A stretch of DNA of 49,742 bases from Fragilaria crotonensis (Eukaryota > Bacillariophyta > Fragilariophyceae > Fragilariales > Fragilariaceae), in contig JAKSYS010000475.1 in assembly GCA_022925895.1 (NCBI GenBank), forward strand, positions 1-49,742. Reading direction: 5' to 3'. The position numbers were made by a program, and so were the translations under genes. Below are positions 4,001 through 47,000 of this stretch, one piece after another. The notes beneath the pieces are model-generated. The model did not search any database. It was not told the DNA's origin and was given only the letters and a program-made list of their open reading frames with translations. The first letter of the stretch is position 1; the number at the start of each line of letters is the position of its first letter.

Positions 4001-6087
4001 ACAACCATATTGTCTTCCACGTACGGGGTGTTACTGGTACTGTCACAAAATTCCAACCAAGTAGGCAATGTTGTGAAGGTTGTAAACAGATGAGGACCTC
4101 CTAGCTTAGCAGCAGTTGTCATCGCATCAGCAAACTTCAGCATCTGGCTTCGTGGTCCACCAGGATAACTTGACGGCAAATACGTATAGCCAGGAAGGTA
4201 TTTCAAGTCGCTTGCTGTGAACGTTTCGTTTGTATCCTCATGATGATGATCATGACCTTCGATGATAAGAGATTCAAAGTTAACGCGTTCTTTGATGTCT
4301 TCCGGCAATGCCTCAAGATATGACACCTTAGCTTGTTCGTCCTCAGACAGTAAGTTAATTGCCATTTCTCTTTGCCTTATCATATTGACCGTGTAGAGTG
4401 CACCTTCAACAACACTTCTTGGAGCCCTCTTCAATAGTGTGTTGTTTCGCCGAAGGTAGTCAAGTGTGTTATGTTGATCACGTAGATATTGTTCCAACAC
4501 CCATGCCTGGCAAAGCCGACCTGCGTGTGAAATAATAGGACTATGCAGCAGTAGATACTTTGTGTATTCATGGAGAGTAATGCCGTTCTTTGTATGTAAC
4601 TTGGTGAAGATTGAAGTGCCGTCTGGCAAATGACCCCAGCCAATTTGCCCATCAAGAAAAAGCAAAGGATAAGCAAGCGTCTCCCAGAACCCGCTATGGT
4701 AGTGAATTCTATTCGACAATCGGTATGTTTCAGATTTTCTTTTTGGTATAACTGTTGCAAACAATTCTGTATTGTCATTCCGATGCATTGTACTGTGAAC
4801 TAATGCCAGTTCCTCACTACTCAATCGTTTCTGTTCCATGTGCTTTGAACGATGCGTAAAATTAAACTTAATGGCTTCGATAGCGTTGTCTTGCCCCATA
4901 CTCATTAACGACAATGCAAAGGGATTAAACCGCTGTAAATAGTCCGAAATTGTTGCTGTCCATGACTTTGCTTGTGTTATATGGCGTGTAGGACGACGCT
5001 CTTCCGGAAGATTATCAAATTCTTGTAGTTGCAATGATGTATCATTAATCCATGCGCGCAGAGGCCCACCGACATCTCCGTTCAAAACCCTTGTGTATGT
5101 TTGCCCACAACAGCGAAGATGAGCTGGCTGTGGAGGCATAAACATTCCACCACGAACAACACTTCCAGGCGATGAAAATCGCAACGTATTGTTAACCATA
5201 CGTGACCATGGTCCAAACCATTTGTTGGTGTACACGGACATAAGCTCTTCTGGGATCTCAAAGCATTGACTGTCAAGAGAAGTTAACGTGCCCTTACCAC
5301 AACAAAATCCAGCTGATTCATGAGCATATAAGAGGAAGTTGTTATCGCAGTACTTGCATAACTTTGCTGGTTTCACATTAACAGGCTCGAGACGCTTTTT
5401 GAAATTAACGTGACGACGACTCGTATTGGGATTACGCTCTCTATAGCGCTGCTTCCTCTCACGATCAAATTGTCGAATACGATCAATCACTTCGCTGTTT
5501 CTATGTGCATTCCTAACATGGCTTTTCCTCTCACGATCGAGGCACCGACGGCGATCAGCCAAATTGCTGTTTCCATCTGCATGCCTAACACGTCTTTTCC
5601 TCTCACAATCAAGTCGGCGTTGGCGATCTTCTATCGTCTCGTGTCTTTCTCCCGGATCTGCCGGAGAAAAAGCAGTCACATCGCTCTTTCTGTGTGCATT
5701 TTCAATCATAGCTCCACTGTTATTCTGTAACAATTCATCATCAGCTACATCACCTGCCGTCACATTAGCAGGACATGAAAGGAGACGGTTGCGTTGTCTT
5801 CTCCTTCTATATGTGTTGTTACGGCTCAGACGACGGCCACGCTCGCAACGTGTCTCCTCATTTTCTCGAAGGGGAGAATCAGACAAATCACCGCTTACTC
5901 GTCGCTTCTTGGCTGTACTAACAGGATCACCTCGCCTAACATGTCTTATTGTATTACGACGTAAACGAAGGCGTCGTTCGTTGTCAGTCTCCTTAGTCTC
6001 CGGCGTAGGGGAATCAGTCAGATCACCCCTTGCCCTCGTTTCTGGCCTGTAACAGCACTTGCTGAGGACGAAGCGTACATAGTGTTG
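1049..6087 (-). pseudogene. Helitron Rep-helicase (RepHel), decayed
   Basis: Read on the minus strand, this is a rolling-circle transposase joined to a Pif1-type helicase. From the start there is an arginine-rich N-terminus with repeated units around DRERK (5400-5700) and an earlier duplicated GDLxDSP block (5830-6040), then a CKYC...CCGKG zinc-type motif (about 5290-5360) and the Helitron-like N-terminal domain. The Rep HUH motif is in FQWRGHPHAHIV (3840-3900), and the two-tyrosine motif is EYLFKYIYKG (3420-3460). The helicase follows: a P-loop APFGRGKS (2210-2240), motif II-like IIEEGPN (about 2000), GDFRQIPPP (1865-1890), and the C-terminal NSMPPSKLLLKVNG and FPLRPRYSMTSNIVQGKT blocks. Frameshifts lie near 3943 (a run of nine A), 3755, 3510, 3238 and 1930. 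The open frame has no ATG near its start; it reads back to a stop at 6088-6090. It is inactive as it stands. Confidence 0.85.
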
Positions 6088-9880: not shown

Positions 9881-9907
9881 TTGAAAGAAGAAACAAGGTA
9901 AAGTACC

Positions 9908-11197
9908 ATGGCTGACGAACCGGACGAAGCGGAAGTTGTATTCGCGTTCTCCCCAGCGTTGGCTGTCCAGGGACTGCTCGACTTCACGAAGAGCGAACAC
10001 TCCAAGATCTACAAGTCTGCCATCCGAGAAGTCTGCAAGGAACCCTTTGACTGCAAAGCCAAAGGTCTCTTCCAGTTCCTTAAAGACGTCCAGGACAGAG
10101 CGGACGAGATGGGGTGGTCCGATGGCATCCTAAACATCACATTGGAGGTGACGGATGACAACGAGCCGGTACAGGAGAGGCTCATTGAGAACTACGGCAC
10201 GATCTCATTGGAGAAAGTTGTCGAGTCCGAGTTGCAGTACATCAACAGAAAAGATCGTGAGGCGCAGGACACATACATGCTCTACAAGTGCCTCATGGTG
10301 TCCTTGACGAATGCTGCGAAGAAGAGAATCTCTCTGTGGTCGGACCAGTACAGGATCGGCGACAAGGATCTGTGCAGCGGCGTGGCTCTCTTGAAGATCA
10401 TCATCCGAGAGAGCCACCTTGACACGAACGCAACCACCAACCAAATTCGTACGAAGTTGTCAAACTTGGACAGTTACATACTCACGGTGGACAGCGACAT
10501 CGGCAAGTTCAACCAGTATGTGAAACTTCTGCTCCAATCGTTGACGGCGAGGAATCAGAAGACGTCGGATCTCCTCATCAACCTGTTCAAGGGATATGGA
10601 GCCGTGAGCGACGAAGTCTTCCGAGCGTGGCTCATGCGCAAGCAGGACGACCATGAGGAAGGAGAAGAGCTCACACCTGACGACCTGATGATAGCCGCCA
10701 AGAACAAATACGATACGGTGGTTGAGAAGGGCACATGGAATGCGCCGACGGCCGAAGAAAAGATAGTGGCGTTGGAAGCGAAATTCAACTCCACGATGAA
10801 GTCGCTTAACAAGAAGGTGTCTTCCGAGAGCTCGAAGAAGAAAGCGGCCAAGTCGGGAGGTGATAAGCAGTCTTTGAAGAAGAAAGAAGGCGATCACCCG
10901 AAGAAGTAGAAGGCACCGAAGCCGGGCGACAAGAAAGAAGTCGACTTCCAGGGTCACATGTGGTACTGGTGCAGAAAGGACACCGGTGGGAAGTGCGAGA
11001 AGTGGCGAGCTCACAAGCCAAAAGAATGCAAGGGCTTAGCCGCTGATGCAGCCGGTGACAAACGCAAGCGCGAGTTGACAGGATCAGACAAGAAGAAGGC
11101 GATTGAGAAGAAACTCAAGGTCGCGAAGGCCTACGTCGCCAAGATGGAGCAGTCGATCGAGAAGGACACAACGGAGGATGAGGACAGCGACGAGTGA
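9908..11197 (+). pseudogene. gag: A1 gag, one in-frame stop
   Basis: Gag of 429 codons beginning MADEPDEAEVVFAF. It forms the particle and binds the RNA. The body is helical; the C-terminal part is lysine-rich and contains a zinc-knuckle-like motif, WYWCRKDTGGKCEKWRAHKPKECKG (10967-11035), with a C-x7-C-x6-H-x4-C spacing. Codon 334 is TAG (10907-10909) where copy A2 has TGG in the same KKxKAPKPGDKK context, so one G-to-A change truncates the protein before the zinc knuckle. The natural end is TGA at 11195-11197, followed directly by CGG; pol continues in the same frame. The primer site and LTR lie just upstream, and the ATG follows GTACC with no other ATG between. Confidence 0.85.
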
Positions 11198-11200
11198 CGG
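11195..11200 (+). promoter_or_regulatory. UGA CGG stop context between A1 gag and pol
   Basis: Gag ends TGA and the next codon is CGG. From there the same frame is open with no stop through 11198-11518, before its first ATG at 11519, and then into the protease. UGA followed by CGG is a known leaky-stop context in plant RNA viruses. Copy A2 keeps the same six bases and the same frame. Confidence 0.6.
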
Positions 11201-14200
11201 GGAGGGTGGACTAACACGATAGTAGTGCGGACTTTACTCACATTGTGTTCGTCTATACCCACCATCATTGCGACCATTCTTCGATCAACGAAACAAACAC
11301 TCGACACCGAGGAGTGGAACAGGGCAGGCCGAGGGATTGCGAAGAGAACGGACACACTCGTAACGTCAGCATGGTCGTACGGCTGGCGAACAATCGAGTC
11401 CATCTCGAGCAAACTGCGAGACTGGATCCTGCGAAACACCAAGCCACGCAATCACTCGGGAACTGCACACCATCGAATCAATCGCAAACGAGCAAGCTGG
11501 GGGCGAAGGGGGACCGTCATGGTGATGACGGTACTTGCCAGGCAAGCGAATGCTACGATTGCGACCGAAAGGAAAGCCCAATTCGACACCGATTTGGAAA
11601 CGATCGGAATCGACAACCAATGTTCGGGGTGCATCTCACACGTGAAGGAGGACTTTGTTGGGAAACTGAGGCCGACGGATCGGGTCGTGAAGGGATTCGC
11701 GGGAACGCGAACGACGAACGTGCAAGTCGGCACGCTACGTTGGAGTTGGGAGGACGAGTTGGGAAGGAAACACACCTTCACAATTCCGAACTCATACTAC
11801 GTTCCCGACGGACGAGTTCGACTATTGAGTCCGCAACACTGGTCCCAGACCCAGACGACAGGTCCCGAACGTGACAAGTGTGGAGAATACACCAACGGAC
11901 GGGAGTGCGTTTTGTTTTGGGAGGTGGAAAGTACAAAGTAGAATTCCACTTGGTAAGAACGACAACGTTGCACCTTTACGATGGCATCAGGCTTCGAGAA
12001 ATTTCGAGGCCTTCTGTTGTGAAGCTGAACTGGATGAATCGACTCGGGACGTCATCGCGATGCCTTCGGGTCTCGTATCAGACGACGAGGAGGACGACGA
12101 AGTCGAGACAGGAAACGATGAGATGCTAACGAACGCTTGGAAGCACTCGAACGAATCCAACGCCGACGACTCACACCTCGACGGACCATCCAGTACTCCT
12201 TCAAAGGGGGAAACAAGCAAGGCAGCAACAAACAAACCGCCGCAAACGGGCGAGCAACCCACAACGACCGACATGGAACTGCCGCGAACGACGAACGTGA
12301 ACATCATCCTTGACGAGGAGGACCGACAGCCAGCCAATGACCTGGCAGAGCTGTTGGCGATCCACCATCAATTCGGACACATCTCAATGAGAAAGCTCCA
12401 AGAGATGGCCAAGCAGGGAATTTTGCCGCGACGTCTATCGAAGTGCAGAGTTCCAACATGTTCGGCATGCCTCTACGCGAAGGCGACGAAACGACCTTGG
12501 CGGAACAAACCAAGGAAGGACGGCGACGACGAGGATTCCAAACCGACAAAACCAGGACAAGTGGTATCGGTGAATCAACTCGTCTCACCCACGCCAGGGT
12601 TGATTGCCCAGATGACTGGCTTCCTGACCACGAAGCGATACCGCTACGCGACTGTCTACGTCGACCAAAAGACAGCGTCAGCGGAGGAGACAGTGGAAGG
12701 GAAGCGTGCGTTTGAGGCATACTCCCATCGGCATGGAGTGAAAGTGGAAAACTACCACGCCGACAACGGAATCTTCAAGGCTTACAAGTGGGTGGACGCA
12801 TGCAAGTTGGACGGACATGGAATGACGTTCGCAGCTGTAAACGCGCACCACCAAAATGGTATCGCGGAAAGAAGAATTCGCGAACTCCAAGAACTGGCAC
12901 GCGCGATGCTGACACACGCGAATGCGAGATGGAGCGATACGATAACTGCGAACTTATGGCCGTACGCCATTCGGAACGCAAACGACGCGGTCAACCATAC
13001 TCCAAGCATGCAAGACGCAGCCAGAAGGAGCCCCATCGAAATATTCTCCAACTCGAAAGTGGCAACCAACCCAAAACACTGGAAACCATTCGGGTGCCCG
13101 ACCTATGTGCTCACAAACGAACTTCAGAGCAACCGACCTTTTCACAAATGGTCGCAACGGTCGAGAGCGGGAGTCTACTTGGGGAGATCACCGCAACACG
13201 GACGAAACGTTGCACTCGTGATGGATAGGGACACAGCCTTGGTGAGCCCTCAATTTCACGTCGCGTACGATGCAACATTCGATACCGTGAAGAACGTCAA
13301 GACGAAAACGTCGTGGCAACTGAGAGCGGGATTTGTCACGTCTCGGAAGGAGCTAACGACGAAGGGCGCAACGTCACCGTCGAGTCAAACGACGAGCATG
13401 ACACCGTCCAGCAGAAAGCGAAAACGCCACACACCAAACGAGAGAGCAAGGGCAGGCGAACCGGTGCCTTCAAGACAGAAGGAGCCAGCTGCAGCAAACG
13501 TCGGGGACGACGGTCCACCGATACCCATCGACGCGACAGAAACGGGCAACATCGCGACGGGTGTTGCGAATCGAATTCAAAAGACAAGATTCGGGCGCAC
13601 GATCAAGCCTACTCAGAAATATCTCGCGGCGATGTGCACGGAGATCAGCGAGGCAACTCGGAATGATGTCGAAGGGGAAATATTTTGCTACGTGGCAATG
13701 TTCCCGAACGACGATCAATGGGCCTATCGCAACCCGTTGATGGCATACAAGGCGGTGTCAGACCCGGACTCACTGTACTATCACCAGGCGATGAAGGAGT
13801 GGGATAGGGCGAAGTTCAAGGAGAGCATGAAGAAGGAGGTGACAGACCAATTCAACAATGGCAACTTCACCATCATTCCGAAATCACAAGTTCCCAAAGG
13901 ACAAACCATGCTACCCGCCGTCTGGCAGATGAAACGAAAACGCGATGCGAAGGATGGTTCAATCAAAAAGTATAAAGCGCGATTGAACATCGACGGGTTG
14001 CGGATGAAAAGAGGTGAGCACTATGATGAGACGGGCGCGCCGGTCGCTTCTTGGAACTCGGTGAGGATGCTCCTGACAATGACAGTCGCGCACGGGTGGC
14101 ACACGAAGCAGATTGACTTTGTTCAAGCATTCGCTCAAGCTCCCGTGGAGAAGACGCTGTACATGAAGGTCCCAACAGGGATGGAACTTGAGGATGATTC

Positions 14201-15384
14201 GAATCCAAACGACTTCGTCCTCAAGATCCACAGGAACATCTACGGCCAGAAGCAAGCGGGACGCGTATGGAACCAATATCTTGTGCAAAAACTGGTGAAA
14301 GACTTGGGTTTCCAACAATCGGCGATGGACGAATGCGTTTCCTACAGAGGGTCAACGTTGTACGTCCTATACACCGATGATAGTTTATTGGCTGGCCCTG
14401 ACAAGAAAGAGATTGACAAGATAATTGACGAGCTTCAAAAGAAGGCCAAGTTGTCCATAACAGTTGAAGGCGACCTTGCCGACTTCCTCGGCGTCAGCAT
14501 CGATCCGAGGACGGATGGCACAATACATCTGTCGCAACCACATCTCATTGACCAGATTCTGGAAGATTTGAGATTGAACGGCACGAATGTTAAATCGCGT
14601 TCGACTCCGGCGGCGTCATCGAAACTACTGACAAGACAGTCGGACTCTGAAGTATTCGACAACTCGTTCAATTACAGATCGGTCATTGGGAAGCTGAACT
14701 ATCTCGAGAAGGCGACACGAAGTGACATCGCGTACGCCGTCCACCAATGCGCCAGATTCGTATCCGACCCCAAGAAAGAACACGGGGACGCAGTGCGATG
14801 GCTGGGACGCTATCTGTTGGGGACCAGAGACAAAGGTACGATTATGCAACCGATGACGAACAAGGACTTGGAGGTCTTCGTTGACGCAAGCTTCTGTGGT
14901 GATTGGGATCCAAAGGAGGCAGCGAGCGATCGTGATACAGCGAGGTCACGCCATGGGTATATCATCAGGTACGCCAACTGCCCCCTTGCTGTGGAAATCC
15001 CAATTGCAAACGGAAGTGGCCCTCCTGTCATTGACGGAGAGCGAATATACAGGTCTGAAATACGCACTAAGAGACGCGATCCCCATAATGGAGCTGCTTA
15101 AGGAGATGAAGGATCGAGCGTACCCGATATCGACGACGCAGGCTCGAGTACACTGTCGTGTATTCGAAGACAACAGCGGAGCTTTGGAAATGGCTCGTGT
15201 CCACAAGTTTTGACCTCGAACGAAACATCTCAACGTCAAGCTGCACCATTTCAGGGACTATGTCGAGCGAAATGAGATCAGCATCCATCACATCCGAACA
15301 AACAATCAACCAGCGGACTTCCTAACAAAGCCGTTGAATGAGGAGTCACATTGCCGCCATCGAAAGACAGTGATGGGATGGTAA
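11198..15384 (+). pseudogene. pol: A1 pol (protease, integrase, RT, RNase H), frameshifted
   Basis: The order is the copia order. The protease region has FDTDLETIGIDNQCSGCISH (11580-11640). The integrase has an HHQFGH...CRVPTCSAC zinc part (12364-12470), HADNGIF (about 12760) and GIAERRIREL (12860-12890). The reverse transcriptase has LYTDDSLLAGP (14370-14400), and the RNase H has VFVDASFCGDWD (14870-14910). Compared with A2 it has single-base losses near 11920, 11943 and 11975, a gain near 12007, a 27-bp deletion near 12668 that removes FSRLGFIYL from the integrase core, a one-base gain near 14985 and a TGA at 15211-15213 replacing an arginine codon. The natural stop is TAA at 15382-15384, and a purine tract (GCGAGAAGGAG) precedes the 3' LTR. 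Confidence 0.9.
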
Positions 15385-23494: not shown

Positions 23495-24853
23495 ATGAAT
23501 CAAGCCCTCCAACGATGCGGATTCAACGCCACAACCGTCAACTACTTTATTGCTCAAGGATTCGCTCCGCCATCAGACCTGTTGCTCGCATCCGAGTCCG
23601 ACCTTGATTCGATTGCCAGATCCATTGCCAGAACTCCACCAAGAGGAGCTGGTAATGTGTTGATGCCATTCATTGCACTCAAGAATCTAAAAGGCTTTCG
23701 CTTCTGGGCTGATGAACGCAAGCGCACAGGTTTCGATGCGGACCCACAACACTTTGACGCAGAACTCGTACCGACGATTACTGCGAAGTGTCAGGAATAT
23801 CAGGAGCAAAAAGAGGCGGCCAAAGATGAAGATGCATCTAAGCCCGACGGGTTGAAAAAGTTGGTAAACTGGGCTCTCTGGAACGAATCCTTTCAAAACT
23901 ACCTTCGTCAAATCCTCGGCGCCGCCAAAATTCCCCTCATCTACTTAACTCGGGATGAGAGGGAGACGCCAGTTGTCCTTGATCCAGCAGATTTTGGGAG
24001 TCCAACGGAATACCTTATCGAAGCGACCGTACTTGAAGGACGCCATTACGAACTGGATAATCCTCGCTTTTATCGCGAGTTAAAGTCTTTTGTCGTAAAT
24101 GGAGAAGGGTGGTCGTATATTAAGAAGTTCGAGAGGTCACAAGATGGTAGGAAGGCATATTTGGCATTGAAGACGCAGTGCGAAGGTACGGCTTCGAAGA
24201 TTACGCGTAAGAATAGGGCTTACGCATCACTCTCGAACGCCACCTACAGCGGCTCGCGTCGCCAGTATAAATTCCAGGACTATATTAATACACATCAGTC
24301 CGCTCACAACGAAATACTTGATTGCGACCCAACCGAAGCAGTCCCTGAATCGAAGAAAGTATCGGACTTCCTGAAGGGAATAACGGACCCCAAGCTGGAA
24401 TCGGCAGTGTCTGTCGTACTGGGCGACCCGAAGATGTTAAACAACTTCCAGATGTGCCAGCAGTATCTCTCAACAACAGTCGAGAATCGGGCAACTCTCG
24501 AGAAGAGTAAGGAAAGAAACATCTCTGGCTTAAAAAGCAGCGACAAAACCGACAAGAAGACGAAAGGAGGTAAGCTCCCAAAAGGATTCAAACTAGAGAA
24601 CAAATGGTATCCACCATCTATCTTCCGCCACTTAACTGAGGAACAAAGAGACCAACTTAAGGAATGGAATGAGAAGAAGGGCAAGAGATCTGTCGCTGCG
24701 TTGAAGAAGCAAATTAAGGAGGAGCTCAAAAGCGAGATGAAGAAAAAGAGTGCGGACGAGAAGGATAGCGACGATGGCGAGTCAAGCGCAGATGAAGCGG
24801 CCGGCAAGGAATTCGGCCGTGGCGCTCACAAAAAGAAGCAGAAAAAGGACTGA
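23495..24853 (+). CDS. gag: B2 gag, intact
   Basis: A complete 452-residue Gag, the best preserved retrotransposon gene here. It starts MNQALQRCGFNATTVN after a leader without a better ATG. The N-terminal 60 residues form a small helical, SAP-like block, followed by the capsid-like body (FRFWADERKR, LVNWALWNESFQNYLRQIL, PLIYLTRDE, FVVNGEGWSYIKKFERSQDGRKAYLALKTQ is the most conserved stretch against B1, given here only as short blocks). The tail (from about residue 340) is lysine- and glutamate-rich and probably binds RNA; no zinc knuckle is present. It ends TGA (24851-24853), immediately followed by CAA TTA and an open pol frame in the same phase. Gag would assemble the cytoplasmic particle. 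Confidence 0.9.
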   Translation: MNQALQRCGFNATTVNYFIAQGFAPPSDLLLASESDLDSIARSIARTPPRGAGNVLMPFIALKNLKGFRFWADERKRTGFDADPQHFDAELVPTITAKCQEYQEQKEAAKDEDASKPDGLKKLVNWALWNESFQNYLRQILGAAKIPLIYLTRDERETPVVLDPADFGSPTEYLIEATVLEGRHYELDNPRFYRELKSFVVNGEGWSYIKKFERSQDGRKAYLALKTQCEGTASKITRKNRAYASLSNATYSGSRRQYKFQDYINTHQSAHNEILDCDPTEAVPESKKVSDFLKGITDPKLESAVSVVLGDPKMLNNFQMCQQYLSTTVENRATLEKSKERNISGLKSSDKTDKKTKGGKLPKGFKLENKWYPPSIFRHLTEEQRDQLKEWNEKKGKRSVAALKKQIKEELKSEMKKKSADEKDSDDGESSADEAAGKEFGRGAHKKKQKKD

Positions 24854-24859
24854 CAATTA
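24851..24859 (+). promoter_or_regulatory. UGA CAA UUA stop context between B2 gag and pol
   Basis: The gag stop is followed by CAATTA, which fits the CARYYA rule for readthrough as in tobacco mosaic virus (there UAG CAA UUA). The frame continues without a stop through the protease, up to the solo LTR at 25492. The first ATG in that frame is at 24872, so internal initiation is not excluded. Confidence 0.65.
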
Positions 24860-27800
24860 ACTACCGTCGCTATGGTCTCGAGGGCTGTGTACTCCATAAA
24901 CTACGATGCAATACGAGGAGAGGACCATCGTTCAGGACGGTGCGAGATGGATTCTCACGCCGACACCTGCGTGGCCGGCAGTTATTGCGTAATTTTGGAA
25001 AACACAGGGAGGACGGCCGAGGTTCAGGCTTACTCTCCAGATTACCCCTCGAAGAAGGTACCCATCGCGACGGTTGCAACAGCATATGATTGTCCGACCT
25101 CTGGAGCCACATTTGTACTGATAATTAATGAAGCTCTTTACTTCGGAGATTCGCTCCCATTTTCGCTCCTCTCTCCGAACCAACTTAGGGACAACGATGT
25201 GCAAGTTGATGAACGCCATCGTCAGCACGCACCAGAATCGATATCCGGTATCCTTGTACCCACCGAACCACTCCTCATCCCATTCAACCTGGACGGCGTC
25301 GTTACCGGTTTTGAATCAAGACCCCCCACCCAAGAAGAACTTGATGACGAGAACCTGCACGTCGAACTAACTTCAGACGTCGAGTGGGTTCCCAGTACCT
25401 TCCCCCTCTCGCTTCCGGAGGAGGAACATGCTCAATCCAACGACGATGAACGGAGACTTTCGCAATTGCAAGCTCGACGCGTGAAGGTCCTTGTAATGAT
25501 ACTGGTACCTGCGTACCGTCACGTGCGCAGAACCAACAGAATGCGAGCGCGAGACGTATATTCGTACTCAGTCGTGGATTCGTACTCAGTCGTGGATTAG
25601 TCGCGTATGTAGTCGCGCGTAAGAGTTTTCGGTCGTTCCCCGTATGAAAACACGGGAACACGACTACCAAATTAAATCATAACATCTAAAAACCTACTTT
25701 CGTCAAAGCCCTTTACCTCGTAGTTTTGCTCGCACGTGTTGCCAGCACGACACCAAGTAAATCACAGGTCCTAGCCTCCAAAACGACAAAGCATCGTATC
25801 AGGAGTTGCTTACAAACCCTGGCTACAGCACAGTTCCCATTCGAGATCCAGATTGCTGACGAGATTGACACTCGCGACGAAAACGATCCAATCCTGAGAA
25901 GGGTTGCGGCTGTAACGAAAGCAGGATACAACTCGGAGGAGACGACAACACTTGCAGCAATCAGAACAGGAGACGTAACTTCATCTGTAACCCCGGAAAA
26001 CGTTGCGCGTCGCTGGATGATTGGGATCAAAACTGCTAGGGCATCCCTGAAGGTGACCACTCAGAGAGGTATCAGGTCGATCCCAAACCCAGCAACGCGA
26101 AGGTTTAAAACTCAGATGGCACACTTGCGCTATCCAAGATTAAGGGGTATGTTCTACGCCGATATCATGGAGCCCAAAATCAAGTCAGTAGATTCGCAAC
26201 GGTACGCTCATGTAATCGGAAACGGACGAGGCTTTTCGAAAGTTTACCCGATGGAGCGGAAAAACGAATCGATTTACGCTTTGGATGACTTCGTAAAAAA
26301 GGTTGGCATTCCCGAAGTTTTGTTGTGCGATGACGACGCAACAATGGAGGGGTTGGGGAAGGGAAAAAGAGAATTCGGAAGTACTCAATTGGACCGAAGT
26401 ATACTGAACCGTATTCACCTTTTCAGAACAAAGCGGAACTTGATATCCGTGAGCTGAAACGAATGATACGACGGTTCCAGGATAAGACGAAATCCGCACG
26501 CAGACTTTGGAATTACTTGGCGAACCTCTGCGCGAATATAAGGTCATTTGTAGCGGGGACACACCCCGATTTACATGGAAGAAGCGCATTCGAGCAAGTT
26601 CACGGATGGACACCGGATGTATCGTCGTACGTCATGCATAGTTGGTACGAGGTGGTCGCATTCCTCGACAACGATAATGAACGAAAATTGGCATGCTGGT
26701 TAGGACCAGCGGAAGACTACGGCGGAGGGGATGCGGCATTCCTCTTACCAAAATCTGCAAGACCGATCGTACGGAGCACATTCTGGGCCCTCACACCGAA
26801 CGAGCGCGCTGACCGCAAGGAGGAGATCGACGACTTACTGACGTCAATCAATAATAAGATCGGAGATGATCGAACAAACGATGAAGTAGCAGTTGAGATT
26901 GGAAACGATCAGCTTCCACACATCGAAATATTCGGGGAGTTGAATGACTCGGACGTCGTGGATTCTGAGGAAGAGGCCCTCAGGCGATCAGACGCCGATG
27001 AATATACACCCGAAGCGTTTGACAGGTATTTAACAGCTGAAATTGTTACCGATCGTGGAGGAGAATTACTCCGCGGAACTGTGAAAAGCCGAAAGAGAGA
27101 TCATGATGGAAAGCCAATAGGTTCATCACATTCGAACCCATTACTTGACACTAGAGAATATTTAGTATGTTTCGAGGATGGAACGGAAGATACATACACT
27201 GCGAATTTAATTGCGGAGTGCTTGTACTCTCAAATTGATGATGCAGGTCGTCGATTACAAGTCATGAAAGAGATTATCGACCATGAAAAGGGAAGACATG
27301 CACTCAACGAAGAGGATGCTTATTACTCCACGAAGGCCGGTCCTAAGCCTAAAAGAACGACGCGCGGATGGCGTCTTCTTGTCGAATGGAATGATGGCTC
27401 GAGTTCGTGGATACCCTTGAGCGACTTGAAAGATTCCTACCCGGTTCAAGTCGCTGACTATGCTGTGGTTAATAACCTAACGCAAGAGCCCGCCTTTCGG
27501 TGGTGGGTCCCGTTCGTCCTTAAGAAACGAGAACGAATATTGAGGAAGGTTAAGTCCAAATACTGGTCAACTTCGCACAAATATGGGCTGGAGTTGCCGA
27601 AAAGTGTCGCACAGGCACTTGAGATCAACAAGAGAACGGGGACGGACTTTTGGAAGAAAGCAATTGAAAAGGAGATCCACAACGTGTTCCCTGCTTTTGA
27701 CTTCATCAAAGGCGACGACGCTCAGGTCCCACCGGGCTACGAGTTTGTTGACACTTACTTCGTATTCGATATCAAAATGGACCTTACACGCAAGGCCAGA

Positions 27801-27869
27801 CTGGTAGCGAGAGGAAGTATGACCGAGGCAACAAAAGAGGAAACATTCGCGTCAGTCGTTAGCAGAGAT
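24854..27869 (+). pseudogene. pol: B2 pol, split by a solo LTR and truncated in RT
   Basis: In phase with gag it reads through CEMDSHADTCVAG (protease region, 24940-24985) and SLLSPNQLRDNDV. The solo LTR interrupts it at 25492-25766. Afterwards come the RRWMIGIKTARASLKVTTQ block, MFYADIM and a damaged stretch near 26340-26465 (frameshift, with the second integrase aspartate region altered to LLCDDDAT). The C-terminal integrase region and two beta-rich blocks follow, the second (27355-27470, RGWRLLVEWNDGSSSWIPL) being chromodomain-like. The reverse transcriptase begins (FDIKMDLTRKARLVARG) and is cut at SVVSRD where A2 starts. It cannot make a full enzyme. Confidence 0.88.
25492..25766 (+). repeat. 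Solo LTR of family A inside B2 pol
   Basis: 275 bp, TGTAATGATACTGG to AAATCACA, in plus orientation. GGTCCT flanks both sides (25486-25491 and 25767-25772), a 6-bp duplication, or 5 bp if the LTR begins one base earlier. It has the 18-bp tandem duplication (GTACTCAGTCGTGGATT units at about 25564-25599) also found in the A2 LTRs. It is the result of LTR-LTR recombination that removed the rest of the element. Confidence 0.92.
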
Positions 27870-28144
27870 TGTGATTTACTTGGTGTCGTGCTGGCAACAC
27901 GTGCGAGCAAAACTACGAAGTAAAGGGCTTTGCAAAAAGTAGGTTTTTAGGTGTTATGATTTAATTCGGTAGTCGTGTTCCCGTGTTTTCATACGGGGAA
28001 CGACCGAAAAATCTTACGCACGACTACTTACGCGACTAATCCACGACTGAGTACGAATCCACGACTGAGTACGAATATACGTCTCGCGCTCGCATTCTGT
28101 TGGTTCTGCGCACGTGACGGTACGCAGGTACCAGTATCATTACA
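27870..28144 (-). repeat. 3' LTR of A2
   Basis: 275 bp. On the plus strand it begins TGTGATTTACTTGG and ends CAGTATCATTACA. Just beyond it, on the element strand, the purine tract GCGAGAAGGAG precedes the LTR. Confidence 0.93.
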
Positions 28145-28177: not shown

Positions 28178-31100
28178 CTACCATCCCATCACTGTCTTAC
28201 GATGGAGGCAATGTGACTCTTCATTCAACGGCTTCGTAAGGAAGTCCGCTGGTTGATCATTCGTTCGGATGTGATGGATGCTGATTTCCTTTCGCTCAAC
28301 GTAGTCCCTGAAATGGTGAAGCTTGACGTTTAGATGCTTCGTACGAGGTCGATACTTGTGGACACGAGCCATTTCCCAAGGCTCCGCTGTTGTCTTCGAA
28401 TACACGACAGTGCACCCGAGCCTGCGTCGTCGATACCGGATATCCTCGTTCCTTCATCTCCTTCAACAACTCCATTATAGGGATCGCGTCTCTCAGCGCG
28501 TAACTCAGACCTGTGTATTCGCTCTCCGTCGACGACAGGGCCACTTCCGTTTGCAATTGGGATTTCCACAGCAAGGGGCAGTTGGCATACTTGATGATAT
28601 ACCCATGGCGTGACCTCGCTGTATCACGATCGCTCGCTGCCTCCTTTGGATCCCAATCACCACAGAAGCTTGCGTCAACGAAGACCTCCAAGTCCTTGTT
28701 CGTCATCGGTTGCATAATCGTACCTTTGTCTCTGGTTCCCAACAAATAGCGTCCCAGCCATCGCACTGCGTCCCCGTGTTCTTTCTTGGGGTCGGATACG
28801 AATCTGGCGCATTGGTGGACGGCGTACGCGATGTCACTTCGTGTCGCCTTCTCGAGATAGTTCAGCTTCCCAATGATCGATCTATAATTGAACGAGTTGT
28901 CGAATGACTCCGAGTCCGAATGTCTTGTCAGTAGTTTCGATGACGCAGCCGGAGTCGAACGCGATTTAACATTCGTCCCGTTCAACCTCAAGTCTTCCAG
29001 AATCTGGTCGATGAGATGTGGTTGTGACAAATGTATCGTGCCATCCGTCCTCCGATCGATGCTGACGCCAAGGAAGTCGGCAAGATCGCCTTCAACTGTT
29101 ATGGACAACTTGGCCTTCTTTTGAAGCTCGTCAATTATCTTGTCAATCTCTTTCTTGTCAGGGCCAGCCAATAAACTATCATCGGTGTATAGGACGTACA
29201 ACGTTGACCCTCTGTAGAAAACGCATTCGTCCACCGCCAAATGTTGGAAGCCCAAATCTTTCACCAGTTTTCGCACAAGATATTGGTTCCATACGCGTCC
29301 CGCTTGCTTCTGACCGTAGATGTTCCTGTGGATCTTGAGGACGAAGTCGTTTGGATTCGAATCATCCTCAAGTTCCATCCCTGCTGGGACCTTCATGTAC
29401 AGCGTCTTCTCCACGGGAGCTTGAGCGAATGCTTGAACAAAGTCAATCTGCTTCGTGTGCCACCCGTGCGCGACTGTCATTGTCAGGAGCATTCTTACCG
29501 AGTTCCAAGAAGCGACCGGCGCGTACGTCTCATCATAGTGCTCACCTCTCTTCATTCGCGAGCCGTCGATGTTCAATCGCGCTTTATACTTCTTGATCGA
29601 TCCATCCTTCGCGTCGCGTTTTCGTTTCATCTGCCAGACGGCGGGTAGGATGGTTTGTCCTTTGGGAACCTCAGACTTTGGAATGATGGTGAAGTTGCCA
29701 TTGTTGAATTGGTCTGTCACCTCCTTCTTCATGCTCTCCTTGAACATCGCCCTGTCCTCCTCCTTCATCGCCTGGTGGTAGTATAACGTGTCCGGGTCCG
29801 ACACTGCCTTGTATGCCATCAACGGGTTGCGATAAGCCCATCGGTCGTCGTCTGGGAACATTGCCACGTAGCAAAATATTTCTCCTTCGACATCGTTCCG
29901 AGTGGCGTCGCTGATCTCCGTGCACATCGCCGCGAGATATTTCTGAGGTGGCTTGATCGTGCGCCCGAATCTCGTCTTTTGAATTCGGTTCGCATCACCC
30001 ATCGTGCGGTCGCCCGTTTCTGTTGCATCGATGGGTATCGGTGGACCGTCGTCCCCGACGTTTGCTGCAGCTGGCTCCTTCTGACTTGAAGGCACCGGTT
30101 CGCCTGCCCTTGCTCTCTCGTTTGGTGTGTGGCGTTTTCGTTTTCTGCTGGACGATGTCATGCTCGTCGTTTGACTCGACGGTGACGTTGCGCCCTTCGT
30201 CGTTAGCTCCTTCTGAGACGTGACGAATCCCGCTCTCAGTTGCCACGACGATTTCGTCTTGACGTTCTTCACGGTATCGAATGTTGCATCGTACGCGACG
30301 TGAAATTGAGGGCTCACCAAGGCTGTGTCCCTGTCCATCACGAGTGACGTTTCGTCCGTGTTGCGGTGATCTCCCAGGTAGACTCCGGCTCTCGACCGTT
30401 GCGACCATTTGTGGAAAGGTCGGTTGCTCTGCAGCTCGTTTGAGAGCACATAGGTCGGGCACCCGAATGGCTTCCAATGTTTGGGATTGGTCGCCACCTT
30501 CGAATTGGAGAATATCTCGATGGGGCTCCTTCTGGCTGCGTCTTGCATGCTTGGAGTATGGTTGACCGCGTCGTTTGCGTTCCGAATGGCGTATGGCCAT
30601 AAGTTCGCAGTTATCGTATCGCTCCATCTTGCATTCGCGTGTGTCAACATCGCGCGTGCCAGTTCTTGGAGTTCGCGAATTCTTCTTTCCGCGATACCGT
30701 TCTGGTGGTGCGCGTTTACAGCTGCGAAGGTCATTCCTTGTCCGTCCAGCTTGCATGCGTCCACCCACTTGTACGCCTTGAAGATTCCGTTGTCGGCGTG
30801 GTAGTTTTCCACTTTCACTCCGTGCCGGTGGGAGTATGCCTCAAACGCTCGCTTCCCTTCCACTGTCTCCTCCGCTGACGCTGTCTTTTGGAGGTAGATA
30901 AACCCCAGTCGACTGAATTGATCGACGTAGACAGTCGCGTAGCGGTATCGTTTCGTGGTCAGGAAGCCAGTCATCTGGGCAATCAACCCTGGCGTGGGTG
31001 AGACGAGTTGATCCACCGATACCACTTGTCCTGGTTTCGTCGGCTTGGCATCGTCGTCGTCGCCGTCCTTCCTCGGTTTGTTCCGCCAAGGTCGTTTCGT

Positions 31101-32397
31101 TGCCTTCGCGTAGAGGCATGCCGAACATGTTGGAACTCTGCACTTCGAAAGACGTCGCGGCAAGATTCCCTGCTTGGCCATCTCTTGGAGTTTTCTCATG
31201 GAGATGTGTCCGAATTGATGGTGGATCGCCAACAGCTCTGCCAGGTCATTGGCTGGCTGTCGGTCCTCCTCGTCAAGGATGATGTTCACGTTCGTCGTTC
31301 GCGGCAGTTCCATGTCGGTCGTTGTGGGTTGCTCGCCCGTTTGCGGCGGTTTGTTTGTTGCTGCCTTGCTTGTTTCCCCCTTTGAAAGGGTACTGGATGG
31401 TCCGTCGAGGGTGTGAGTCGTCGGCGTTGGATTGGCTTCGTTCGAGTGCTTCCAAGCGTTCGTTAGCATCTCATTGTTTCCTGTCTCGACTTCGTCGTCC
31501 TCCTCGTCGTCTGATACGAGACCCGAAGGCATCGCGATGACGTCCCGAGTCGATTCATCCAGTTCAGCTTCACAACAGAAGGCTCGAAATTTCTCGAAGC
31601 CTGATGCCATTGTAAAGGTTGCAACGTTGTCGTTCTTACCAAGTGGAATATCTACTTTGTACTTTCCACCTCCCCAAAACAACACGCACTCCCGTCCGTT
31701 GGTGTATTCTCCACACTTGTCACGTTCGGGACCTGTCGTCTGGGTCTGGGACCAGTGTTGCGGACTCAATAGTCGAACTCGTCCGTCGGGAACGTAGTAT
31801 GAGTTCGGAATTGTGAAGGTGTGTTTCCTTCCCAACTCGTCCTCCCAACTCCAACGTAGCGTGCCGACTTGCACGTTCGTCGTTCTCGTTCCTGCGAATC
31901 CCTTCACGACCCGATCCGTCGGCCTCAGTTTCCCAACAAAGTCCTCCTTCACGTGTGAGATGCACCCCGAACATCGGTTGTCGATTCCGATCGTTTCCGA
32001 ATCGGTGTCGAATTGGGTTTTCCGTTCGGTCGCAATCGTAGCATTCGCTTGCATGGCGAGAACCGTCATCGCCATGACGGTCCCCCCTTCGCCCCCAGCT
32101 TGCTCGTTTGCGATTGATTCGATGGTGTGCAGTTCCCGAGTGATTGCGTGGCTTGGTGTTTCGCAGGATCCAGTCTCCCAGGTCGCTCGAGATGGATTCG
32201 ACCGTTCGCCAGCAGCATGACCATGCTGACGTTACGAGCGCGTCCGTCCTCTTCGCAAACCTTCGTGCTGTCCTGCTCCACTCCTCGGTGTCGAGTGTCC
32301 GTTTCGTTGATCGGAGAATGGTCGCGATGATGGTGGGTATAGACCAACACAATGTGAGTAAAGTCCGCACTACTATCGTGTTAGTCCACCCTCCCCG
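28178..32397 (-). pseudogene. pol: A2 pol, nearly complete
   Basis: The least damaged pol in the window: 1,259 codons are open from 32075 to 28296. The protease region has FDTDSETIGIDNRCSGCISH. The integrase has HHQFGH...CRVPTCSAC, VDQFSRLGFIYL, HADNGIF and GIAERRIREL. The RT has LYTDDSLLAGP, and the RNase H has VFVDASFCGDWD, SSTESEY and FEDNSGAL. Two single-base gains break it. One is in a run of six G (32082-32087) between the gag stop and the protease, where A1 has five. The other is near 28377 (CTTGGG where A1 has TTTGG), just before the final RNase H block, which then reads on in another frame to TAG at 28178-28180. The protein would integrate and copy the element. Confidence 0.9.
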
Positions 32398-32400
32398 TCA
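32395..32400 (-). promoter_or_regulatory. UGA CGG stop context between A2 gag and pol
   Basis: On the minus strand TGA (32400-32398) is followed by CGG, as in A1. The frame after it is open to the one-base gain near 32085 and has no ATG over about 100 codons. Confidence 0.6.
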
Positions 32401-33687
32401 CTCGCTGTCCTCATCCTCCGTCGTGTCCTTCTCGACCGACTGTTCCATCTTGGCGACGTAGGCCTTCGCGACCTTGAGTTTCTTCTCAATCGCCTTCTTC
32501 TTGTCTGATCCTGTCGACTCGCGCTTGCGTTTGTCACCGGCTGCATCAGCGGCTAAGCCCTTGCATTCTTTCGGCTTGTGAGCTCGCCACTTCTCGCACT
32601 TTCCACCGGTGTCTTTTCCGCACCAGTACCACATGTGACCCTGGAAGTCGACTTCTTTCTTGTCGCCTGGTTTCGGTGCCTTCCACTTCTTCGGGTGATC
32701 GCCTTCTTTCTTCTTCGAAGACTGCTTGTCACCTCCCGACTTGGCCGCTTTCTTCTTCTTCGGGCTCTCGTGGGACACCTTCTTGTTGAGCGACTTCATC
32801 GTGGAGTTGAATTTCGCTTCCAACGCCACAATCTTTTTCTTCGGCCGTCGGCGCATTCCATGTGCCCTTCTCAACCATCGTATCGTATTTGTTCTTGGCG
32901 GCTATCATCAGGTCGTCAGGTGTGAGCTCTTCCCTTCCTCGTGGTCGTCTTGCTTGCGCATGAGCCACGCTCGGAAGACTTCGTCGCTCACAGCTCCATA
33001 TCCCTTAAACAGGTTGATGAGGAGATCTGACGTCTTCTGATTCCTCGCCGTCAATGATTGGAGCAGAAGTTTCACATACTGGTTGAACTTGCCGATGTCG
33101 CTGTCCACCGTGAGTATGTAACTGTCCAAGTTTGATAACTTCGTACGAATTTGGTTGGTGGTTGCGTTCGTGTCAAGGTGGCTCTCTCGGATGATGATCT
33201 TCAAGAGAGCCACGCCGCTGCACAGATCATTGTCGCCAATCCTGTATTGGTCTGACCACAGGGAGATTCTCTTCTTCGCAGCATTCGTCAAGGACGCCAT
33301 GAGGCACTTGTAGAGCATGTATGTGTCCTGCGCCTCTCGTCCTTGCTCGTTGATGTACTGCAACTCGGACTCGGTGACTTTCTCCAATGAAATCGTGCCG
33401 TAGTTCTCGATGAGCCTCTCCTGTACCGGCTCGTTGTCGTCCGTCACCTCCAACGTGATGTTTAGGATGCCATCGGACCACCCCATCTCGTCCGCTCTGT
33501 CCTGGACGTCTTTAAGGAACTGGAAGAGGCCTTCGGCTTCACAGTCAAAGGGTTCCTTGCAGACTTCTCGGATGGCAGACTTATAGATCTTGGAGTGTTC
33601 GCTCTTCGTGAAGTCGAGCAATCCTTGGACAGCCAACGCTGGGGAGAACGCGAATACAACTTCGGCTTCGTCCGGTTCGTCAGCCAT
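32398..33687 (-). pseudogene. gag: A2 gag with two opposite frameshifts
   Basis: Same length as A1 gag (1,290 bp). A one-base loss near 32932 and a one-base gain near 32836 cancel each other, so only about 30 codons in the middle are read out of frame and the tail returns to the gag frame. The zinc-knuckle motif is WYWCGKDTGGKCEKWRAHKPKECKG, with tryptophan at the codon that is a stop in A1. It begins MADEPDEAEVVFAF, next to the LTR and primer site. Confidence 0.88.
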
Positions 33688-33715
33688 GGTACTTTACCTT
33701 GTTTCTTCTTTTCAA

Positions 33716-44066: not shown

Positions 44067-47000
44067 ATGGCTGCTCCAGCCCCTCATTTTGCATTGGCTC
44101 CAGCCTTTGCTAATCCTGATGTCCTCAACTACTCTGAGCAGGCTGCTGCCAAGCTCTTCAAGTCTGGTACTGAGGCTTTGTCCATCAAGTTTGACTGCAA
44201 GTCAGACAATCTTCAGCTCTTCCTTGATCAAACCAGGGATAGATCCATAGTCTTTGATTGGCTCAACATTCTTAGCATTCCCATTCAAGGCAATGTGGCT
44301 AATTCCAAGGATCTCATTGAGTCTTATGGAGAGATCTCCTATGAGGAGGTCAGAGCCCATGCCCTCACCTACATGCATGAGGATGCCAGGAAGCTCAAGA
44401 TTCCTTCATGATGTACCATTGTCTCATGAACTCTTTGACTGATGCTGCTCAAAGCAGGTCAGGACCAGAGGCAATGTTCATCCCTTCATCTTTGGAGGTA
44501 AAGGATCAGGTCCAGTCCTCCTCAAGGTCATTATCATGGTCTCACATGTGGATACCAGAGCCACCATCACTAGTGTCCGACCAAGCTCCAGTCTTGATCA
44601 TGCCATGCGCGATATCGATTCTGACATTGAACTCTTTAATGACTATGTCCTTGGATTGGTCAGCAAGCTCTCTGCCAGGGGTGAACAAACCCAAGATCTC
44701 CTGGTGAATCTGTTCAAAGGTTACAAGGCCTGCAAGGATGCTGAGTTTGTGGACTACATCAAGAAGAAGGAAGACTTCTATGAAGAAGGTGGCCAAGTTG
44801 AGTATCAACAGCTCATGGACTGGGCTCTCAACAAGTTCAAAACCAGGAAAGAGTCAGAGCAGTGGTGCCTCAAGACTACAGAGGAGGAAACTATCATTGC
44901 CTTGCAATCCCAAGTCAAAACCCTCATGTCCAATCAGAAGAAACCTAATCCAGCAAGTGGCAAGTCCAGTGGAGGAGGAAAGAAGGACAACAAGCAGGGA
45001 AACAAGAAAGACAAGGGTAAAGGCAAGTTCAGAGTTGAGGATCTTCCAGCATGGGTACATGTTCATCCCAAGGAAGAGAGAAGCAGTCCAAGACTGTTGA
45101 AGGCAAGGACTACCATTGGTGCCCCAATCACAACAGGTGGACCAGACACAAGCCTTCTGACTGTAAGGGTATTGGTTTCAAAGGTGGTCCCAAGAAGGAT
45201 CAAGGCAACAAGGGTCAAGACTCCAAGCAGCCTAGCATGAAACTGGCCAAAGCGCCGCAGCCATCTCCGATGATGATGAATGATGGGGACGCCCAATGGA
45301 CTGCGTGTTCATTGGGCTTGGATTTTCAAGTGGTGGCAGAGATGGTGCGCAGACGTGTGCTACCTCTTCAGCCATGGCTTGGAGGCCATTGTCCAATCTG
45401 TTCAGGTGTGGGTTACCAATCCAAATTCAAGGCCTCAGGAAAGGTGAGAAATTGGAAGGTACACCCAGTCACAGTGTCTGAATATGTCAAGTCATGGATG
45501 CATGATGGGAGTTTCAGCATGCAACCAAGACCAAGACCTTGGATGAAGGGCAAAGGGCCAAGATACAAAAGGAATTCCACCCAACTCAACTGCCTGACAG
45601 CAGTCATTGCAATGAAGGCAAGGCAAGCCCACCAAGATGAAGCAGCAAGCTTTGATACTGATTCCAAGGCTAGGATTGACAACTGTGCATCCTATTGCAT
45701 TTCCAATGACAAGAAAGACTTCATCACTCCTCTCAAGAGGGTCAACAAAAAGTTGAAGGGGTTGGGTGGAACACTTACTGAGATCTACTCAGGGACTATC
45801 AAGTGGTCAATTGAAGATGATACAGGAGTTCCTCATGACATTGTCATTCCACATGGGCTCTATGTCAAGGATTCACCTTCAAAGCTGTTGTCTCCACAGC
45901 ATTGGGCCCAGACTGCCCAAGACTTCAAGCCTTTGCCAAGAGGCACATGGTGTGCAACATACCATGACAGCATTCAACTACACTGGGCCCAAAGACAGCA
46001 CACCAAAACAGTGAGGTTGAACCAGGGGAGTGGCAACATTGCAACCATGTATACTGCTCCAAGCTACAAGGCTTTCAACACCTTCTGCAACATGTGTGAG
46101 GTGGGACTGGATGAGGATGACCCAATCATTAACATGGAAACCCATCTCATCCCTGATGATGAAAATGAAGACTGTCAGGAACCTCTTCATCAACCAGAAG
46201 CACCAGATACCTCATCCCAAGGGGTGGATTGGAGTCATCCTCCAAATACACCAGTCTCATTTGACCTTGATGCTACTGACCGCACCGACTTGCCAGTCGT
46301 CATTGACGACGAAGAGGACACTGCCGTTCATGAGAACCCTGCTGCAGAGTTCCTTCGCTGGCATCACAAGTTGAATCACATGTCGGCTGCCAAAATGCAA
46401 AGCATGGCCAAGCGCGGTTTGCTCCCGAAGAAGTTGGCCAAGTGCCAAGTTCCAACCTGCACCAGCTGCTTATATGGAAAGGCCACCAGAAGACCATGGA
46501 GAACCAAGCCAAAGGGTGGTCAACAAGGTGGAAAACTTCGAACAGCCTCAGAGCCGGGACAGTGCATCAGCATCGATCAGTTGGAGTCCAGTACTCCAGG
46601 GCTCATTGCCCAAATCAAGGGTTGGCTCACCAAGAAAAGGTACAAGGTGGCAACAATCTTTGTGGATCACTTCAGTGGTTTGTCCTACATCCACCTTCAG
46701 AAGTCAACCAATGCAGATGAAACTCTTGAAGCAAAGCTGGCCTTTGAGAGGTATGCTTCAAGTTCAAGGTCCAAGTCAAGAGTTATCAAGCTGACAATGG
46801 CAGGTTTGCAGAGAACAAGTTCATGGCAGCTGTCAAGGAAGCAGGTCAGACAATCACTTTCTGTGGAGTCAATGCTCATTTTCAGAATGCTGTGGCAGAA
46901 AGAAGGATCAGGACTTTGCAAGACCAAGCAAGAACTATGTTGATTCATGCTCAGCACAGGTGGCCTAAGGCTATTGATGCACATCTCTGGCCTTATGCTC

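Follow-up and report, generated by a model that had tools for sequence, protein, structure and literature searches.

Is the UGA codon that ends the gag gene of a copia-like element in the diatom Fragilaria crotonensis a plain terminator, or is it a leaky stop behind which pol is translated as part of a Gag-Pol fusion, and if so, what makes it leaky? The element, a copy of family B, lies in a stretch of 49,742 nucleotides (contig JAKSYS010000475.1), here called the window. A preliminary description had proposed that the UGA is rendered leaky by the hexamer CARYYA following it, the tobamovirus signal. The stop proved to be real and conserved, and it is very probably leaky by design, but the CARYYA motif is not the reason. 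The features concerned are as follows:

23495–24850, + strand: gag of the family B copy, open for 452 sense codons from the ATG at 23495
24851–24853, + strand: UGA (TGA) at the gag end, the proposed leaky stop; UGA in 39/39 junction clusters
24854–24854, + strand: position +4, the C next to the UGA and the base conserved in the proposed signal; C in 37/39 clusters
24854–24859, + strand: CAATTA, which fits CARYYA; only its first base is conserved, and the fit occurs in 1/39 clusters
24854–25491, + strand: first part of pol, in zero frame and including the DSHADTC protease, as far as the solo LTR insertion
24885–24912, + strand: 5′ arm of a predicted extended stem-loop (columns 38–65 of alignment A10)
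24984–25007, + strand: 3′ arm of the same predicted stem-loop (columns 137–160 of alignment A10)
25492–25766, − strand: solo LTR inside pol of the family B copy, an inverted match to 27870–28144
25767–27869, + strand: remainder of pol in the family B copy; its frame changes, and it extends as far as the next LTR-like repeat

The layout given in the preliminary description was confirmed: gag is intact for 452 codons and followed by TGA and CAATTA, and the same frame stays open through the protease, as far as 25600. Of these 248 codons (24854–25600), which include the protease motif DSHADTC, about 212 are element sequence, the solo LTR starting at 25492. This LTR (275 bases, belonging to another family) is flanked by a 6-base duplication, GGTCCT, at 25486–25491 and 25767–25772. 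Because of the solo LTR within pol and the frame change in the rest of pol, the window copy is not a working element. The second family B element of the window (about 15.6–22.6 kb) was found by reading to have no gag-pol junction and is uninformative in this respect; its integrase precedes the reverse transcriptase, both Pfam matches being below the curated cut-off (28.8 bits for RVT_2, with 31.6 required; 17.6 for rve, with 32.6 required). In the close copies, the protease lies before integrase and reverse transcriptase; Ty1/copia elements have the order protease, integrase, reverse transcriptase.

All evidence stems from one genome, at the level of DNA. Searches of the 62.1-Mb F. crotonensis assembly yielded at least 108 matches to gag and at least 151 to the protease; for the latter, 150 matches of 437 candidates were scored, and not all were fetched, those omitted being mainly near-identical copies and short pieces. 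Junctions were recognized either from the UGA itself or from whichever in-frame stop lay closest upstream of the protease; copies carrying other stops were checked separately. With duplicates of a single place and loci judged decayed or unclear removed, 105 gag-end junctions of related copia-like elements were kept, which clustering at 88% over positions −45 to +75 condensed to 39 clusters. Three of the 105 (L063, L065, and L117) have a TAG or TAA nearer the protease, yet the family UGA is present, with a frame change after it. Outside the 105 are places fetched twice (L009, L010, L012, L016, L017, L020, and L053, as well as L094, which is the place of L161); copies decayed or unclear by eye (L007/L039, L052, and L128, together with L048, L050, L058, L103, and L135, which have TAA and look decayed); the relatives described below that lack the stop at this place (L055–L057, L086, L090, L106, L112, L113, and L134), with L084 and L085; pol ends, short pieces, and host genes (L119–L127, L129, and L139–L158); and pattern matches without copia junction or hairpin (L163–L165 and L168–L171). 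L007/L039, which are one place, contain an in-frame UGA-U 29 codons upstream of the protease. L061 (UGA-U, clade K) is also outside the 105; its inclusion would bring UGA-U to 7 of 106.

Whether TGA and zero frame are conserved in other copies, a question raised by the preliminary description, was addressed by this census. UGA marked the end of gag in 39/39 clusters, and pol followed in open zero frame in 91 of the 94 junctions with the protease in view (11 loci were too short). A chance or decayed stop was, thus, rejected, UGA being common to all 39 clusters. The next base (+4) was C in 37 of the 39 clusters and U in the remaining two, both of clade K; counted by junction, TGAC was present in 99 and TGAT in 6 of the 105. 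Outside the stop, +4 was the most invariant position between −15 and +24 (95%, next best 79%; 39 clusters). The codon 3′ of the UGA varies in amino acid (L, R, Q, H, or P) while its first base stays C. Position +5 among the 37 UGA-C clusters was U in 26, G in 7, A in 3, and C in 1, that is, mostly UGA-CU. The triplet CUA or CGG followed the UGA in 10/39 clusters (the window copy has CAA), and GAA was the last gag codon in only 13/39.

Stops of two other kinds, from the same genome, were used for comparison. The pol ends of nine elements have TAA (4) or TGA (5), with C, A, G, G, T, G, G, T, and C as the next bases (one of the nine stops lies two codons past its printed place), and UGA-C was found in none of these nine. 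The same holds for the ends of host light-harvesting genes, 19 of 20 loci being readable (TAA 17, TAG 1, TGA 1; C next in one; UGA-C in 0/19). The closest PDB chains to a light-harvesting protein of this genome are named FCPI-7 and Lhcr11, which are diatom chains. Fisher's test for UGA-C gave p = 3e-8 against the pol ends and p = 2e-13 against the light-harvesting genes, values that serve only as a guide because related clusters are not independent. We consider more telling that the C is kept while the amino acid changes, and that synonymous sites in gag are at or near saturation: among five family B copies, dS in gag was 1.8, 1.9, or beyond measure, with dN between 0.07 and 0.18.

Is the stop accompanied by RNA structure? 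For family B, seven sequences were examined from the UGA onward. Among 19 windows of 180 nt along gag and pol, the one at the UGA was the strongest (z = −6.5 versus column shuffles), the other 18 ranging from −3.4 to +1.5 and leaning negative; in a separate run, z was −3.9, with 0/200 shuffles as low. The extended stem predicted there consists of 23 pairs, six of them changed on both sides; none of 500 shuffles reached its score, and 91% of cells pair, compared with 37–47% when slid, although derivation of the stem from the same alignment used for testing favours it. The best folds of the single sequences contain 17, 19, 0, 20, 6, 15, and 21 of the 23 pairs, and the window copy folded alone is unremarkable (z = −1.0). 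The stem starts 31 nt after the UGA, whereas the usual distance is ∼8 nt.

In clade C3, a 10-pair hairpin is predicted to start 7 nt 3′ of the stop; across ten distinct sequences, 93% of cells pair, and two pairs are changed on both sides. Its score was matched by 1/500 shuffles and its number of pairs changed on both sides by 165/500, and the alignment z was −7.3 (five sequences). The clade K hairpin begins 9 nt after the UGA. All 20 pattern matches in the genome combine either UCUUG with CAAGA (9) or UCUCG with CGAGA (11), none being mixed despite the fact that the pattern allowed mixing; this covariation amounts to a single double change. The alignment z was −2.7 (three sequences), and 158/500 shuffles scored as high. 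For clade C1, pair counting yielded 0 pairs changed on both sides (500/500 shuffles as high) and RNAalifold 5 pairs, again none changed on both sides, while 5 of 10 copies fold strongly alone. By alignment z, no conserved structure was detected in clades C1, C2, and S. In an 80-nt single-sequence scan of 37 junctions, mean z at the UGA was −0.92 and, 20 nt upstream of it, −0.87, the 13 remaining offsets lying between −0.48 and 0.08; this signal is carried by C3 and the 5 of 10 C1 copies, nothing being seen for family B in windows of this size. Taken together, the alignments show covarying predicted structure 3′ of the UGA in two clades (family B and C3), with weaker support in a third (K) and none in three (C1, C2, and S). 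Just after the gag UGA, GGCUC pairs with GAGGCC in both clade S (L070–L073) and clade K (L059–L064), possibly one old hairpin.

Some relatives manage without the stop. In a group near family B (L055–L057), gag runs into pol in one open frame with no stop at the junction, and this is also so in a more distant group (L086, L090, L106, L112, L113, and L134), of whose family L085 has a stop elsewhere. A C2 copy (L084) has TGG at the place of the UGA, and a decayed clade K copy (L128) has lost it. Given these single-frame sister groups and the two single copies, a leaky stop is dispensable in some relatives, and the pattern of similarity suggests that the UGA was gained or lost more than once. Beyond this genome, scans of IMG/VR (with an alignment of the RNase H region and with gag) and of GTDB contigs found no relative. 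A protein search with gag returned 117 proteins, the window's own included, of which 43 were read, mostly near full length: in 40 of the 43, an FG-type motif is located near the end and the stop follows 12–22 residues after the motif's first letter, as in the window gag, and of the three off this pattern, one (P0019) is alike by eye. The search is limited to proteins with 0.55 to 1.75 times the length of the query, which excludes any fused Gag-Pol, and it does not reveal the stop codon.

Other elements of the window are organized differently. In two copia-like elements of family A (28296–33693, − strand; 9902–15101, + strand), the frame of pol differs from that of gag and begins about 170 bases past the gag stop; either gag and pol are joined by other means there, or the copies are decayed. 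A further copia-like element (44443–46943, + strand) has gag and pol overlapping in different frames, as in frameshift elements. Long frames at 1893–6087 (− strand) resemble, by eye, the helicase of a Helitron-type element.

In favour of readthrough governed by CARYYA, the type I signal invoked in the preliminary description, CAATTA of the window copy fits it, and CARYYA can, according to the account in PMC3542737, also act on UGA. The preliminary estimate that such a fit occurs in about 1 of 500 sequences is sound (1 in 512 by base choice alone). However, the fit is confined to 1/39 clusters, namely the window copy. In the seven sister sub-families of family B, the UGA is followed by CTCGTA, CTAGCA, CTCGCA, CGCAAC, CATGAA, CAATGC or CAGTGC, and CTCATA, none of which fits. 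With the C fixed, chance alone would produce about 0.3 fits (39/128), and one was found; the match is, thus, no more than chance, whereas UGA, C, and zero frame exceed it. CARYYA is refuted as a conserved signal, and the view that it is what the junction depends on has become extremely improbable, although it may add to leakiness in the window copy alone. The absence of a conserved CARYYA, which the preliminary description had itself named as evidence against its reading, disposes of the motif and leaves the leaky stop standing. Equally hard to credit is that the UGA is recoded otherwise, by selenocysteine insertion, by RNA editing of UGA to UGG, or by a reassigned code. The TGG of L084 speaks for such recoding, but gag and protease of the window copy contain seven TGG and no TGA, which argues that UGA is not an ordinary codon here, and among the Rfam matches with E 0.5 or better between 15400 and 28200, which cover the window's copies only, there was no selenocysteine element family.

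Two further explanations leave the UGA a true stop. Ribosomes could terminate and reinitiate at a nearby downstream AUG, yielding Pol without Gag; all seven family B sequences have an AUG 18 or 21 nt past the UGA, a favourably short distance. Yet the codons between the UGA and this AUG preserve their amino acids, ending T-V-A with third-base changes only in all seven sequences, and a three-base difference in length in two of the seven keeps the frame. Moreover, 12 of the 34 clusters with the protease in view have no AUG ahead of the protease motif (counted strictly; one more has an AUG directly before it), so that reinitiation cannot serve those, and neither the zero frame, nor the choice of UGA over other stops, nor the C would be required. 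Reinitiation is very unlikely to be the answer. Alternatively, a separate RNA for Pol, made by splicing or from an internal promoter, could bypass the UGA, as Drosophila copia splices and a minor promoter has been described at the Tca2 junction (PMC2194720). Against this, coding sequence extends up to the UGA and resumes directly after it in the same frame across clusters, and neither splicing nor a promoter would explain UGA-C, which leaves little room for such an RNA.

A programmed leaky stop is, by contrast, the best explanation of the UGA, and one in which we have high confidence. Most ribosomes would terminate at the UGA and release Gag, whereas a minority would decode it by a near-cognate tRNA, stay in frame, and produce Gag-Pol. 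The signal would consist of the UGA and the following C, as in type II viral readthrough, presumably assisted by an RNA stem-loop farther 3′ in at least two clades, the window's family included; the CARYYA of the window copy would then be one form among those taken by the loose sequence 3′ of the C. What the sequences themselves show is the UGA, the C, the zero frame, coding on both sides, the AUG-less stretch ahead of the protease in many families, and covariation in two clades; readthrough itself, its rate, the amino acid inserted, and any stimulation by the structures are inferred. Since one genome offers many divergent UGA-C junctions, clade-specific structures, and single-frame relatives, the roles of stop, next base, and structure are directly testable. 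A UGA that closes the gag frame of such an element ought not to be counted as damage, and automatic gene prediction will break these polyproteins apart.

Readthrough in alphaviruses, UGA-CUR in fission-yeast Ty3/gypsy elements, and UGA in the copia element Tca2 are already known and are precedents for these junctions. The CoDi elements are likewise copia-like and from diatoms; their authors accepted one or no stop codon or frameshift between gag and pol, and in the available part of PMC2806351, compared here by description rather than by sequence, no recoding claim or stop context was noticed. Among titles and abstracts, no report of readthrough in diatom elements was recognised, most subscription journals being outside this coverage. 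Stop-codon suppression has been described for SIRE1, a Ty1/copia element of soybean. Its suppressed stop reportedly lies between pol and an envelope-like gene, not between gag and pol as here. Tca2 of Candida albicans, also Ty1/copia, shares, as portrayed in PMC2194720, the in-frame UGA between gag and pol, an 8-nt spacer, and a possible 3′ structure, but differs in being a single element, in its purine-rich spacer, and in its pseudoknot; 300 nt of its junction gave no readthrough in S. cerevisiae, and its mechanism is unproven.

As to signals, type I differs in that its natural cases use UAG, whereas the diatom junctions have UGA throughout. Type II, as defined in PMC3542737, has CGG or CUA directly after the UGA and, as a rule, a stem-loop some 8 nt farther 3′. 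The diatom junctions resemble those of the alphaviruses, tobraviruses, and furoviruses in having UGA-C throughout most clusters and UGA-CUA or UGA-CGG in part of them, and in the 3′ stem-loop of some clades, 7–9 nt after the stop in two (C3, and K with weak statistics). They differ in lying at the gag-pol junction of a retroelement and in the 31-nt distance of the family B stem. Since CUA or CGG is limited to 10/39 clusters, the diatom junctions would work like type II with a looser triplet, and the window copy, with CAA, is not claimed as a strict member. The fission-yeast Ty3/gypsy elements Tj1, Tosmo1-3, and Tcry1 carry GAA UGA CU(A/G) between gag and pol, where readthrough has been proposed (PMC10085805), and for Tj1 the stop is described as required for transposition (PMC4600332). 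Judging from these accounts, they have the same in-frame UGA-CUA/CUG at gag-pol, but they are Ty3/gypsy, few in number, and fixed for GAA UGA CU. It is likely, though less firmly held than the leaky stop itself, that UGA-C readthrough serves to make Gag-Pol in an entire radiation of diatom copia elements, kept over saturating divergence, with clade-specific 3′ stem-loops and repeated transitions into or out of a single frame: a natural series of a recoding signal built, remodelled, and lost, convergent with the fission-yeast Ty3/gypsy elements and with RNA viruses.
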